A stretch of DNA of 64,000 bases from Bacteroidota bacterium (lineage in GTDB: Bacteria; Bacteroidota; Ignavibacteria; UBA10030), in NCBI GenBank assembly GCA_026416125.1, contig JAOAFT010000002.1, positions 62,001 through 126,000 of the forward strand, in the 5' to 3' direction. Position 1 is the first letter of the stretch; every line of letters starts with the position of its first letter. Positions 36,451 to 50,829 of the stretch are shown in pieces. A program made the translations under genes and the position numbers. Below the pieces are notes generated by a model, which was not told the origin of the DNA, made no database searches, and was given only the letters and a program-made list of their open reading frames with translations.

Positions 36451-37329
36451 ATGAACACTGATAAGTTGATAAAGACAGTTGCCGTTATTGGAATAGGCCA
36501 CAAAGGGACTGTATTAATTCGCCTTATCGCTACAAAAGGTTTTGACGTTGTTATATACGATGTCAATGAGACTCTCTTAAGACGATCTATTGAGCTCATA
36601 AAGAACGATCTCCGTAAGGCAGTTCAACAACGAATTTTCTCACATGAAGAGATAACTAAAACTTTAGAGCGCATCAAAACGAAAACACATCTTCCCGATA
36701 CCGGTAATTGTGACATTATCATTGAAACTGTACCTGATGATATTAAAATAAAGAAAGACATACTAAAACACCTCGACATCAATGCAAAAAATTCTTCGCT
36801 CCTCGTTACTACGACATCGCTGTATACAGTATCATCTGTTGCATCGTACGCTAAGAACACTGAACGTATTGTAGGTCTTCGTTTTCCACACTCTATTGAC
36901 AATGCACGGTGTGTTGAAGTGACACCCACACTTCAGACGAAAGAAGTAATGGTAGCAAAAGCTTTTACATTTGTTCAATCTCTGGGTAAAATACCGATTC
37001 TTACTAACGATTCCCCAACTTCAATTGCTGAAAGTGCAAACCTTGCATGGTATCGTGAAGCACTTTACATTGCTGAAGAAGGTGTTGCAACGTTTGAACA
37101 AATTGATCGACTTGTCACAATGAATCTCGCAATCCCACAAGGTCCATTTCAGCAGATGGATATTCGCGGTCTCGACCAAATTCACCATGCTCTCACAACA
37201 CACTATCAACAACGATTTTATAATCCTCGATTTGTTCCATCTTCACTCCTCCAACAAATGGTTGATTTAGGACTCCATGGGACAAAAACAGGCCGTGGAT
37301 TCTTTACCTATCCACGGGAGGCGCGATGA
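36451..37329 (+). CDS. 3-hydroxyacyl-CoA dehydrogenase-like protein lacking catalytic residues
   Basis: This 292-residue protein (from ATG 36451; the TTG at 36424 is less likely) has the full architecture of the family. It has an N-terminal Rossmann fold with V-I-G-I-G-H-K-G at residues 12-19 and an aspartate after the second strand (Y-D-V-N), then a helical C-terminal domain with I-P-Q-G-P-F-Q-Q-M-D-I-R-G-L-D. Active enzymes have G-x-H-F-F-N-P with a catalytic histidine. Here the segment is G-L-R-F-P-H, with R144 at that position. The paired glutamate remains (E156 in C-V-E-V). The conserved substrate-site N-R is also missing. NAD binding looks possible, but the classical reaction does not. 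Confidence 0.75.
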   Translation: MNTDKLIKTVAVIGIGHKGTVLIRLIATKGFDVVIYDVNETLLRRSIELIKNDLRKAVQQRIFSHEEITKTLERIKTKTHLPDTGNCDIIIETVPDDIKIKKDILKHLDINAKNSSLLVTTTSLYTVSSVASYAKNTERIVGLRFPHSIDNARCVEVTPTLQTKEVMVAKAFTFVQSLGKIPILTNDSPTSIAESANLAWYREALYIAEEGVATFEQIDRLVTMNLAIPQGPFQQMDIRGLDQIHHALTTHYQQRFYNPRFVPSSLLQQMVDLGLHGTKTGRGFFTYPREAR

Positions 37330-38147
37330 AACAAAAAACTATACAACGCAACAGCACGAAGATGGACTCATCAAAATCAGAACTAACTGTTTTCGTATGC
37401 GGCGAATCTCCACTTGTAGAAGAAATTGCATGCCGCTGTGCAAGTCATGGGTACACTGTTTTCATCTACCTGAATGAATCTCCCCAAAAAACTCAAACGA
37501 ACTTTCTTCATCAACGTATTTCTGAGGTAACATCATTTCCAAGTTCATGTAACGTTGCTATTGAAGTAACAAACACTAACATTGAGCAAAAACGAACTAA
37601 CATTGTAAAACTTAGTACTTCTCTTCCCCACACAGTTCCCCTCCTTTCATCTTCTGTTACTATTACCGCAAGTGAGCAAACACGTTGGATTCAAGGGAAA
37701 CACCGTTTAGTTGGTATCGGAGCATTCCCTACTCTCCTTTCAAAACCACTTATCGAAGTAGCCCCAACTATCTATACTCCCAAAGAAACGTTGACAGCTG
37801 TATCGAACTTCTTTCATACTCTGAATGGTACGATTGAGATTGTAGAGGATCGTGTTGGTATGGTCCTCCCCCGCCTTCTCTGCACGTACATAAACCATGC
37901 TTTCTGGACACTCGATGAAAACATTGCTGCTCCAGATGACATCGATCAAGCAATTACCCTTGGTACCGATTTTCCGAAAGGACCTATCGAATTATCTGAA
38001 AAATTTACATTTCAACAAATCTACGCAGTGCTTTCAGCTCTAAACCGTGAACTGTCGCCTCAACGATACACAATTGCACCACTAATTCGACAACTGGCAC
38101 TCACCGGTGCTTGGTGGCACTCACAGCATAAGGAGAACTTGCTATGA
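37326..38147 (+). CDS. Second, more degenerate 3-hydroxyacyl-CoA dehydrogenase-like protein
   Basis: This 273-residue protein overlaps the stop of the previous gene by 4 bases (ATGA) and has a strong GGGAGG site. It is similar in plan to its neighbour. The Rossmann glycine motif is reduced to G26-E-S-P-L-V. The catalytic histidine position is G132 (V-G-I-G-A-F-P). The dyad glutamate is kept (E144 in P-L-I-E-V), and the substrate-site asparagine is P182 (L-P-R-L-L). The C-terminal domain signature D-D-I-D-Q-A, then F-P-K-G-P-I-E-L, remains. I infer a tandem duplicate that has drifted further, perhaps a structural partner of the first protein. Its function is unknown. Confidence 0.65.
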   Translation: MKQKTIQRNSTKMDSSKSELTVFVCGESPLVEEIACRCASHGYTVFIYLNESPQKTQTNFLHQRISEVTSFPSSCNVAIEVTNTNIEQKRTNIVKLSTSLPHTVPLLSSSVTITASEQTRWIQGKHRLVGIGAFPTLLSKPLIEVAPTIYTPKETLTAVSNFFHTLNGTIEIVEDRVGMVLPRLLCTYINHAFWTLDENIAAPDDIDQAITLGTDFPKGPIELSEKFTFQQIYAVLSALNRELSPQRYTIAPLIRQLALTGAWWHSQHKENLL

Positions 38148-38821
38148 GAATACTCAATATTCTGTTTATAATTACACTTTTGATATTGTTGAATTGTTAT
38201 TCGCAACCTAAACTATCAGTGAATGCGACAGAAATATACTTAGGTAAGATCTACAGTGGTGAAACAATCAAAGGCACTCTCACATTAAAAAACATTGGGA
38301 ATGACACGCTTATCATTCACGATATCCGTCCGTCATGTGGATGTACTACTGTTAAACAACCCAAACGCTTCCTGCTTCCCAAAGAGAGTGATAATGTTGA
38401 AATTGAATTCAAATCTGCTGGATTCCGAGGTCAAGTCGCAAAGTTCGTCAATATTGTTACAAATGATCCTTCTTCCCAAACAATCACAATTAAACTTACA
38501 ATTGATGTCGTTGAAATCCTCACGCCTCACACACCTACACCATGGTTTGGTGAGATAGCATTACACGATACAGCAAGCCGCACACTTACCTATACGAACA
38601 CTTCTGGGAATGCACTAAGAATAACAAACATTATCACATCTACGAGTAACGTCCACGTTCTGTGGGATAAGAAAACTCTCCAACCAAACGAACTCTTCAC
38701 AATAAATGTTACTGTACGAGCAACAAATCCTGGATTTCGGAATGAATACATTTGGATAGAAACAGATCATTCAAAACAAAAACGTTACGAAGTACGAATC
38801 TCATACATTGGAAAGCAATGA
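38144..38821 (+). CDS. DUF1573 secreted or lipid-anchored protein
   Basis: This 225-residue protein has a hydrophobic signal segment ending at C18 (L-L-N-C), an imperfect lipobox, followed by the DUF1573 Ig-like domain. Its hallmark C-G-C-T is here at residues 65-68, after D-I-R-P-S. A second beta-rich repeat fills the C-terminal half. DUF1573 proteins are widespread extracytoplasmic proteins in Bacteroidota and relatives and have no settled function. It overlaps the previous gene by 4 bases and has AAGGAG upstream. Confidence 0.85.
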   Translation: MRILNILFIITLLILLNCYSQPKLSVNATEIYLGKIYSGETIKGTLTLKNIGNDTLIIHDIRPSCGCTTVKQPKRFLLPKESDNVEIEFKSAGFRGQVAKFVNIVTNDPSSQTITIKLTIDVVEILTPHTPTPWFGEIALHDTASRTLTYTNTSGNALRITNIITSTSNVHVLWDKKTLQPNELFTINVTVRATNPGFRNEYIWIETDHSKQKRYEVRISYIGKQ

Positions 38822-39255
38822 AGAAACAACTCTTCATAGAAGTATCACTCTTGCTTGGGCTTTCTACCATTGTAGGTTTTCTATATACATATATCGCTCA
38901 GCAAGGATTCTTTGCACCCAAGAAAGCACCGACTTTCACAGTGCTTAACCTTTCCGATGCGAAAAAGTACTTTGAAGAGAAATCAGCACTATTTCTTGAT
39001 GCGAGGAGTGAGTATGAGTATAAACTGGGACATATTCCAGGAGCTCTCAATGTTCCCCTCTATGAACTCAAGCAATCGTCTTCGATATCCTCAAGTATTC
39101 CCCACAACATTTTTCTGATTGTATACTGCGATGGAAGTGAATGTCATTCCAGCTTCCAAGTAGCAGAATATTTACTCACGCGTGGGTATACAAACGTAGG
39201 TGTATTTTATGGAGGATGGCAGGAATGGACAAATGCAGGATTACCGATCGAATAA
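38818..39255 (+). CDS. Membrane-anchored rhodanese-domain protein
   Basis: From ATG 38818 (overlapping the DUF1573 stop as ATGA, with GGAAAG upstream) the protein has 145 residues. Residues 7-27 form a membrane anchor and residues 40-145 a single rhodanese domain. It shows F-L-D-A-R-S-E-Y-E-Y, H-I-P-G-A-L-N-V-P, and the active-site loop Y-C-D-G-S-E-C-H with catalytic C104. Y-G-G-W-Q-E-W-T-N-A-G is the usual end. It probably carries persulfide sulfur outside the cytoplasmic membrane. Confidence 0.9.
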   Translation: MKKQLFIEVSLLLGLSTIVGFLYTYIAQQGFFAPKKAPTFTVLNLSDAKKYFEEKSALFLDARSEYEYKLGHIPGALNVPLYELKQSSSISSSIPHNIFLIVYCDGSECHSSFQVAEYLLTRGYTNVGVFYGGWQEWTNAGLPIE

Positions 39256-39263
39256 CACTATAC

Positions 39264-39743
39264 ATGACCCACCCTGTGGTTCATTTTATCGTACGGTGTA
39301 TCCTTGGGAGTATTTTTATTATTGCTGCACTTAGTAAAGTGAATGCTGTCGATGAATTTACGCAAACTATTCTAAATTACAGAATTCTCTCCCCCCTTAT
39401 TGCCACAGTTGTTGCAACTGTCCTTCCATGGATTGAACTCTTGTGTGGTGTCTCATTGCTTCTTGGTATTTTTCAACGCTCATCAGCATTTATTCTTTCT
39501 ACATTACTGATTGTCTTCACTATCCTCATTGTGCGAGCACTGTACCTAGGTCTTTCTATTACCTGCGGGTGTTTTTCACAGGATCCATCGAGTAATACTC
39601 TTGGGTGGTGGAAAGTTCTTGAAAATAGCGTGTACATTGCTTTAGCTGTGTACTTGCTACTTTGTCCAGAAGATCAATTTACTATTTTCTCTTTGTTTGA
39701 TAAACGCAATATTCAATTACCACGTGCTAACGACCACTACTAA
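39264..39743 (+). CDS. MauE/DoxX-family redox-associated membrane protein
   Basis: From ATG 39264 (M-T-H-P-V-V-H-F) it has 159 residues with four hydrophobic segments. The motif T-C-G-C-F near the last pair of helices matches the cysteine motif of the MauE/DoxX family, which includes membrane proteins for thiol-disulfide chemistry. An in-frame ATG at 39225 has a GGAGG upstream, but that sequence also codes for the conserved end of the rhodanese, so the match may be chance. It follows the rhodanese gene by 8 bases. Confidence 0.8.
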   Translation: MTHPVVHFIVRCILGSIFIIAALSKVNAVDEFTQTILNYRILSPLIATVVATVLPWIELLCGVSLLLGIFQRSSAFILSTLLIVFTILIVRALYLGLSITCGCFSQDPSSNTLGWWKVLENSVYIALAVYLLLCPEDQFTIFSLFDKRNIQLPRANDHY

Positions 39744-39752
39744 CAATTTCCC

Positions 39753-40307
39753 ATGCTTATTCCTCTTGAACACAATCTCTATTTACGAACTCTCTCTCTC
39801 GAAGATGCACCTGAATTATTTACGCTCATTGAACGAAATAGATCGCATCTCCGCCAATGGTTGCCATGGGTTGATGCTACAAGAACTATCGAGAACACCA
39901 TTGCGTTCATTGAATCGGCGCTCCAGCAAAAACTCTCAAATCATGGGTTTCAATGTGGTATATGGTATCAAAACAAGTTAGTGGGGGTTATTGGATATCA
40001 TACCATCGATTGGAACAACAAGAATGTGGAACTTGGGTACTGGCTTGGGAAAGAGTACGAAGGGAAGGGGATAATGACCAAATCGTGTCGGGCCCTCATC
40101 GACTACGCTTTCACCGAATACAAACTCCACAGAGTTCAAATTCGTTGCGCTGTTGGTAACCATCGCAGCCGTGCCGTCATCGAAAGACTCGGACTTGTCC
40201 AAGAAGGTATTATGCGCGAAGCTGAATTCCTTTACGACCACTACGTTGATCTCTTCATTTACGGAATAACCGAACAAGAATGGAAATCTCGTACAGATAT
40301 TCCATAG
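39753..40307 (+). CDS. GNAT acetyltransferase, RimJ/RimL type
   Basis: This 184-residue N-acetyltransferase resembles ribosomal-protein-serine acetyltransferases. It starts with L-R-T-L-S-L-E-D-A-P-E-L-F and has the acetyl-CoA-binding part L-G-Y-W-L-G-K-E-Y-E-G-K-G at about residues 91-103. The helical segment N-H-R-S-R-A-V-I-E-R-L-G-L-V-Q-E-G follows. The real substrate is unknown; members act on ribosomal proteins, antibiotics or metabolites. It starts 9 bases after the MauE-like gene. Confidence 0.88.
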   Translation: MLIPLEHNLYLRTLSLEDAPELFTLIERNRSHLRQWLPWVDATRTIENTIAFIESALQQKLSNHGFQCGIWYQNKLVGVIGYHTIDWNNKNVELGYWLGKEYEGKGIMTKSCRALIDYAFTEYKLHRVQIRCAVGNHRSRAVIERLGLVQEGIMREAEFLYDHYVDLFIYGITEQEWKSRTDIP

Positions 40308-48937: not shown

Positions 48938-49912
48938 TTACTTTCCTAACAGTTTTTTTACCTCTTGCGTCAGTGCGGGAACAATTTCGAACGCATCGCC
49001 CACAATACCATAGTCTGCAATTTGGAAAATTGGTGCATCCTTATCTTTGTTTATAGCTACAATATACTTGGATGAAGACATTCCTGCAACATGCTGAATT
49101 GATCCAGATACTCCTACTGCAATGTACAACGTTGGCGAAACTGTTTTCCCTGTTTGTCCTACTTGATCTCCATGTGGCCGCCACCCAGCATCAACAGCTG
49201 CACGGGATGCGCCAACAGCACCACCTAACACCTCTGCTAGGTCTTCAAGCATCTTGAAGTTCTCCGGACCTTTCAACCCACGACCACCAGTAATTACAAT
49301 ATCAGCTTCTGCTACGTCGAGTTTACCACTTCCTATTGTTACAGCCGTTGTCCTTGCTGTAAAGTCAGCATCTTGTAAACTCACCGAGACAACATCACAC
49401 TGTGGGCGTGTACCATCAATTGATTGAACAGCAAATACATTCGGACGAATTGTAAGTACTTTCACAGGTGTTGTAATTTTCACGTCAGCGAGAACTTTGC
49501 CTCCATACATCGGGCGTGTTGCACGAATGTCACCATCTTGTATATCTACTGCAATACAATCGGCTGCTAATCCAGCATTAAGCTTTACCGCTACACGCGG
49601 TGCACAATCTTTTCCAAGCGCCGTGGCACTCAGAAGTACGACCGTTGCATTTTCTCTTGCTGCCATCTCAACTATAATTCTGGCATACGCTATTGGTGAG
49701 TAAAGTGCTAATTTTGGGTCCTGAACAACAAGTACACGATGTGCTCCATATTCCCCTAATTCCGATGCAATACCATCAATACTATCACCAATAACGAGAG
49801 CAATGACTTCGCCACCTGTCTGTTGTGCTAAAGTATATGCAACACTTACTACTTCAAACGCTGCTTTTTTGAATTTTCCATTTCGTTGTTCGGCAAATGC
49901 AAGAATTTTCAT
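48938..49912 (-). CDS. etfA: Electron transfer flavoprotein alpha subunit
   Basis: EtfA binds the FAD that carries electrons from acyl-CoA dehydrogenases to the quinone pool. From ATG 49912 the protein has 324 residues. The C-terminal FAD domain shows V-I-T-G-G-R-G-L-K-G, S-R-A-A-V-D-A-G, G-Q-T-G-K-T-V and the loop S-G-S-I-Q-H-V-A-G. It is co-transcribed with etfB. No dehydrogenase partner or Etf-quinone oxidoreductase is in the window. Confidence 0.95.
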   Translation of the reverse strand: MKILAFAEQRNGKFKKAAFEVVSVAYTLAQQTGGEVIALVIGDSIDGIASELGEYGAHRVLVVQDPKLALYSPIAYARIIVEMAARENATVVLLSATALGKDCAPRVAVKLNAGLAADCIAVDIQDGDIRATRPMYGGKVLADVKITTPVKVLTIRPNVFAVQSIDGTRPQCDVVSVSLQDADFTARTTAVTIGSGKLDVAEADIVITGGRGLKGPENFKMLEDLAEVLGGAVGASRAAVDAGWRPHGDQVGQTGKTVSPTLYIAVGVSGSIQHVAGMSSSKYIVAINKDKDAPIFQIADYGIVGDAFEIVPALTQEVKKLLGK

Positions 49913-49938
49913 ACGTTCAATATCCTCCTCTTGTTCCA

Positions 49939-50685
49939 TCAAAGTATTTTTGCTTCCTCATGGAGTAATCGTACAAGCTCTGGTACTGCCGATACGTCTG
50001 TACCAACAATTTTTCCAGTACCTTTTGAAGGTGGTCGTCGTATAGCTACGACTTCAACTTTCTGAGCTACCTGACTTGGTATGCGTTCTTCTATCGGCTT
50101 ACTTTTCGCAGCCATAATTCCTTTTAGAGCCGGATACCGTGGTTCATTTAATCCTTTCTGAGCAGTGAAAAGAGCCGGCAGCGTAACTTCAACAGTTTCT
50201 CGCCCACCCTCTATTTCACGTTCAACAATCGCTTGCGCACCCTCAAGTTTCATGCTTACAACCACAGATACAGATGGAATGCCAAGGAGCTCAGCAATCA
50301 TCACCCCAACTGCTGCATTGTCAGCATCAATCGATTGCTTCCCACAGAGGATAACATCAGGAGCAACATCTTTTATGTACTCAGCAAGCGCTGTAGCTAC
50401 ACCAAAAGAGTCACGTGTCGATTCATCTTTCAAAAGCACGGCTTTGTCGACTCCCATTGCTAATGCTTTTCGTAGTGTTTCTTTGTGCGAATCGCCTCCA
50501 AGTGAAACAGCGATAACTTCGCCACCATGTTTCTCTTTTATCCGGAGTGCTTCCTCGATCGCAAACTCATCGTAAGGATTAAGGACAAAAGCAACTCCCG
50601 TTTTGTCAATTGATTTCCCATCAGGTGCAACATTAATTTTTGCTGCCGAATCAGGGACATGGTTAACACAAACAACTACGTTCAT
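49939..50685 (-). CDS. etfB: Electron transfer flavoprotein beta subunit
   Basis: EtfB pairs with EtfA and holds AMP in ordinary Etf. From ATG 50685 (GTAGGAGTT directly upstream) it has 248 residues, the usual length; the longer open frame upstream is not conserved. Signatures are D-E-F-A-I-E-E-A-L-R, G-K-Q-S-I-D-A-D-N-A-A-V-G and the C-terminal A-K-S-K-P-I-E. Whether the pair is bifurcating cannot be judged here. Confidence 0.95.
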   Translation of the reverse strand: MNVVVCVNHVPDSAAKINVAPDGKSIDKTGVAFVLNPYDEFAIEEALRIKEKHGGEVIAVSLGGDSHKETLRKALAMGVDKAVLLKDESTRDSFGVATALAEYIKDVAPDVILCGKQSIDADNAAVGVMIAELLGIPSVSVVVSMKLEGAQAIVEREIEGGRETVEVTLPALFTAQKGLNEPRYPALKGIMAAKSKPIEERIPSQVAQKVEVVAIRRPPSKGTGKIVGTDVSAVPELVRLLHEEAKIL

Positions 50686-50829
50686 AACTCCTACCTTTGT
50701 TATTATACATGCATTGATTGTTACTAACTGTATCAAGGTATAAAAGTTTTCTAATATGGGCAAGTGTTGGAAGTTGTTATATAGTCTGCTCAACTCTCTA
50801 CGAAATCATGCAACTGAATACTCTTTACT

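Follow-up and report, generated by a model that had tools for sequence, protein, structure and literature searches.

Our analysis suggests that two adjoining genes of an Ignavibacteria genome encode a two-gene dehydrogenase of the PaaH type (3-hydroxyadipyl-CoA / 3-hydroxyacyl-CoA) that has outlived its pathway and has become a pair of pseudoenzymes in this lineage, a reading to which we give a probability of about 0.72. The kind of system is already known, and the two-gene form and its dead version are variants of it. The genes, called here P1 and P2, lie with their downstream neighbours in a stretch of 64,000 nucleotides (the window), as follows.

36451-37329, forward strand: P1, a PaaH-type 3-hydroxyacyl-CoA dehydrogenase half of 292 amino acids with an eroded active site
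37326-37329, forward strand: 4-nt overlap (ATGA) between the stop of P1 and the start of P2
37326-38147, forward strand: P2, a homolog of the PaaH C-terminal half as a separate protein of 273 amino acids
38144-38821, forward strand: DUF1573 protein, the gene after P2, with an ATGA overlap with P2 at 38144-38147
38818-39255, forward strand: rhodanese-domain protein, with an ATGA overlap with the DUF1573 gene
39249-39743, forward strand: MauE/DoxX membrane protein, from a domain match
39753-40307, forward strand: GNAT acetyltransferase, next in line also in the g8 group of relatives

The initial annotation had placed the reading frames of the pair and their overlap correctly. These genes make up a compact operon (36451-40307), the ATGA overlaps of which lie at 37326, 38144, and 38818, and the order P1-P2-DUF1573-rhodanese-MauE-GNAT is repeated in the g8 relatives. 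A DUF1573 gene is found 3' of the pair in most members of the family, and the 4-nt overlap between P1 and P2 is possible in 15 of 49 relatives. Promoter and terminator scans gave results at or below chance.

Half-by-half homology, synteny, a fused form, and the paa setting of relatives with a complete P1 support the reading of the pair as a split PaaH. P1 matches 3HCDH_N (1.2e-37) and 3HCDH (6.4e-19), and covers positions 4-291 of the PRK08268 model; P2 covers positions 287-505. Together they reproduce the two-half layout of PaaH (3HCDH_N and 3HCDH, then a reduced Rossmann domain and 3HCDH). Their separate scores (199 bits for P1 and 89.6 for P2) are below the whole-protein cut-off of 508, which was set for the fused protein, and a Thermomicrobiales genome (L138) in which P1 and P2 are fused in one polypeptide, a 606-aa frame, passes it with 561.9 bits. 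PaaH itself (E. coli 3MOG; TIGR02279; NF006124/PRK08268) likewise consists of two homologous halves with an active site in the N-terminal half only, its C-terminal repeat shares with P2 a motif around DIDxAMxLGxNYPxGP...ERYR, and its paa-operon setting is that of relatives of the window pair. Unlike PaaH, the window pair is encoded by two genes instead of one, has an apparently dead catalytic half as well, and belongs to a genome without the pathway. The HAD parts of FadB/FadJ and MFE1 are similar in that a second 3HCDH domain replaces the dimer partner, but they differ from P1-P2, which lacks a crotonase domain, and the scores are lower. The fusion of the two halves in PaaH/PRK08268 and L138 makes it likely that P1 and P2 form a complex.

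The catalytic emptiness of P2 is not a fresh loss. Its profile has E. coli PaaH (3MOG) as best match (9e-54), scoring higher against the C-terminal repeat (349-470; 111 bits) than against the catalytic half (71 bits). P2 matches 3HCDH (3.6e-14) and, weakly, 3HCDH_N (3.8e-6), the latter only from profile position 64 onward, so that the nucleotide-loop part goes unrecognised; its architecture is a Rossmann domain without the loop and a helical 3HCDH domain, and its predicted structure is confident (pLDDT 91.9). The initial annotation had noted the absent loop and asparagine, the retained glutamate, and G132 at the position of the catalytic histidine. Our alignments agree, with P182 at the position of the asparagine and E144 as the glutamate, but the loop was not lost recently: it is missing, together with His and Asn, in 53 of 53 P2 orthologs, and E. 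coli PaaH lacks it too. This protein has been described as resembling a fusion of two HAD genes, the second Rossmann domain of which has neither catalytic residues nor an NAD cleft (PMC4498308). Because that domain is equally empty, the missing loop, His, and Asn of P2 are ancestral. P2 is thus a conserved, catalytically empty partner. Positions invariant in the P2 alignment (A1) are G26, E80, K89, N92, Q118, G130, P135, E144, D175, G178, R183, C186, N190, D207, A209, G219, R247, and P252. A scan of viral contigs for P2 returned zero relatives. Some Bacteroidota (Pontibacter, Roseivirga, Marivirga; L153-L157) have a P2-like protein of 220-260 aa with no adjoining P1.

The pair is conserved in the Ignavibacteria. 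Of 80 related genomes, about 53 have a P2 ortholog, nearly always with an adjoining P1, and the two genes lie side by side in unchanged order in 49 loci (about 50 genomes). These orthologs rule out the decay of a single genome, an outcome that the initial annotation had proposed to check by seeking the pair elsewhere. Further P1-P2 pairs were found in Chloroflexota (Thermoflexus, Anaerolineae), Methylomirabilota, and one deltaproteobacterium. Hence, PaaH exists in two-gene form throughout the Ignavibacteria and in some of the Chloroflexota. We searched the literature for a split PaaH, the Ignavibacteria pair, or the erosion series presented below, and did not find them described in the papers covered. 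The suggestion that the pair represents undescribed biology thus rested on a correct observation, most of the novelty of which is explained by PaaH; in particular, the seeming loss in P2 is accounted for by the known empty half of this enzyme.

It had also been suggested that both proteins lost catalysis jointly to acquire a new role. This is not supported, P2 being the long-known empty half of a PaaH-type enzyme and P1 an ordinary dehydrogenase in phenylacetate-degrading relatives: the orthologs have the canonical His in 48 of 49 cases, with the full His-Glu dyad, and the Asn in 45 of 48. Only the window lineage and a small number of relatives show the losses in P1, which are recent, and the window copy has the most eroded active site. 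Alignment to 9fbd, 3mog, and 4kug places R144, as noted earlier, at the position of the catalytic histidine and E194 at that of the asparagine, and only the glutamate of the dyad (E156) is kept. The substitutions of the window copy are M18K, which removes the Met of GxGxMG, N121T, H144R, F146P, N147H, P148S, N194E, and R195S, with G190 also altered; the GxGxxG glycines, D37, S123, and E156 are retained. In human HAD, Met26 and Asn208 flank the nicotinamide and the keto group, and His158 accepts the proton (PMC10988713). The window P1 has K, E, and R in place of the corresponding M18, N194, and H144, so that by analogy its hydride and proton transfer should be lost. The fold seems unaffected, with a predicted structure of high confidence (pLDDT 93.6) and close to 3-hydroxybutyryl-CoA dehydrogenases (TM about 0.92, Foldseek). 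P1 resembles these monofunctional enzymes (PRK05808; 9fbd, 4kug, 6aa8) in fold and length, but they are homo-oligomers with an intact Ser-His-Glu-Asn site, whereas P1 is accompanied by a degenerate partner and itself lacks His and Asn.

The erosion of P1 seems to follow the loss of phenylacetate degradation. In many relatives the pair is flanked by genes for enoyl-CoA hydratase (ECH), PaaA/PaaC-family proteins, and thiolase, which gives it a paa setting there. The corresponding genome setting (PaaA/C, thiolase) is present in PaaA/C-bearing relatives and absent from the window genome, where we found no PaaA/C, no Thiolase_C, and a single weak match of the Thiolase_N type. According to genome surveys, PaaA/C and Thiolase_C are both missing in this genome, in G003, and in six g8 genomes, and nine further family members have a thiolase and no PaaA/C. 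A panel of nine active-site positions of P1, chosen after the alignment had been viewed, is intact in all 30 scorable PaaA/C-bearing genomes vs 2 of the 19 pair-bearing genomes without PaaA/C (Fisher p 3e-11, a value that ignores shared descent). On the P2 tree, the two traits undergo about 7 and 6 changes, and the independent-pairs test on well-supported branches, underpowered with three pairs only, gave two for the association, none against, and one equal. H144R reappears in G049, a member of another family that is also devoid of PaaA/C. These genomes form a natural series, from intact with the pathway, to eroding without it, to presumably dead in the genome of the window, and this series offers a way to trace and test how an enzyme turns into a pair of pseudoenzymes.

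The pair might instead be a relic that slowly decays after the loss of paa, with reading frames kept open only by ATGA coupling to the DUF1573, rhodanese, and MauE genes. We regard this as doubtful, even if several observations agree with it. The pathway is missing, the ATGA overlaps at 38144 and 38818, beyond that at 37326, could hold the frames open, and P1 evolves at a strongly elevated rate relative to P2: its end branch to the window, the longest of the tree, is 2.11 vs 1.21 for P2. Near-invariant residues were lost from both window proteins (32 of 71 in P1 and 8 of 32 in P2), which also fits decay, and the window copy may be further advanced toward it. Yet, the pair is retained in 17 of 17 near-complete genomes of the family that lack PaaA/C, and in 15 of the 16 besides that of the window at least 91% of the near-invariant residues of P2 are preserved. 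Pairwise dN/dS is low (0.06-0.24) in measurable relatives, including those without PaaA/C. Selection on the window branch is unmeasurable because the lineage is without close relative and dS is saturated against any relative, which leaves no usable dN/dS. Also against decay, P1 has no stop over 292 codons, despite about 4.8% of amino-acid-altering single changes being expected to be stops, and both proteins have confidently predicted folds.

It is improbable that P1 has stayed an enzyme but changed its chemistry or substrate, with R144 and E156, or H147, doing the proton transfer. The residues retained in its active site are compatible with such a function, and the histidine at 147, three residues past R144, recurs in G028 and G012 and is a conceivable substitute. 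However, this single protein has substitutions at every one of M18, N121, H144, N194, R195, and G190, and three of them (M18, H144, N194) correspond to those that position the nicotinamide and the keto group and take the proton. As for the sensing of acyl-CoA or NADH proposed in the initial annotation, nothing we found points that way and we consider it very unlikely: P1 does keep its NAD-binding glycines and D37, but P2 is incapable of usual NAD binding and the genes next to the pair (DUF1573, rhodanese, MauE, GNAT) include no regulator, DNA-binding, or signalling partner.

If the pair is a PaaH-type dehydrogenase that outlived its pathway, its history might be as follows. P1 and P2 would associate through their helical 3HCDH domains, as do the halves of PaaH, with P2 as the empty half that completes the dimer; fusion, synteny, and homology all point to this arrangement. 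In PaaA/C-bearing relatives, judging from family and operon, P1 would oxidise 3-hydroxyadipyl-CoA. The ancestor of the window lineage presumably lost phenylacetate degradation and beta-oxidation steps, since the window genome lacks PaaA/C, thiolase, and a second 3-hydroxyacyl-CoA dehydrogenase (no strong 3HCDH_N match besides the pair), and has a single crotonase. P1 would afterwards have lost M18, H144, and N194, on which the sandwiching of the nicotinamide and the proton abstraction depend, while keeping the fold, GxGxxG, and D37. The present pair would then most likely be a catalytically dead, folded, and possibly NAD-binding pseudoenzyme complex, retained by residual selection, either because it serves a function other than dehydrogenation or because it is part of the coupled DUF1573-rhodanese-MauE operon. 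More tentatively, and with somewhat less than even odds, one family of Ignavibacteria may have kept the PaaH-type heterodimer after repeated losses of the pathway by co-opting it as a non-catalytic complex linked to DUF1573-rhodanese-MauE, of which the window lineage would hold the fully dead form.

Some additional observations concern these genomes. A role of P1-P2 in regulating a second 3-hydroxyacyl-CoA dehydrogenase or a thiolase was considered and rejected, neither having been found in the window genome. The sole crotonase (L077:1501-2166; G000:C11:26787) is diverged and, with the 25 listed models, does not reach any curated cut-off. The window also carries genes for ETF alpha and beta (48938-50793), in a genome that has a single match for acyl-CoA dehydrogenase and lacks a thiolase. 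P1 of G026 is divided between two frames that overlap, next to a stretch of undetermined bases (L026:5471-6293), which can be due to an assembly gap or a broken gene. Finally, an M1-type peptidase gene lies between P1 and P2 in four genomes (L044, L048, L053, L054); the inserted peptidase has about 550-600 aa, with an 800-aa frame in L053, and occurs in one family of the order.
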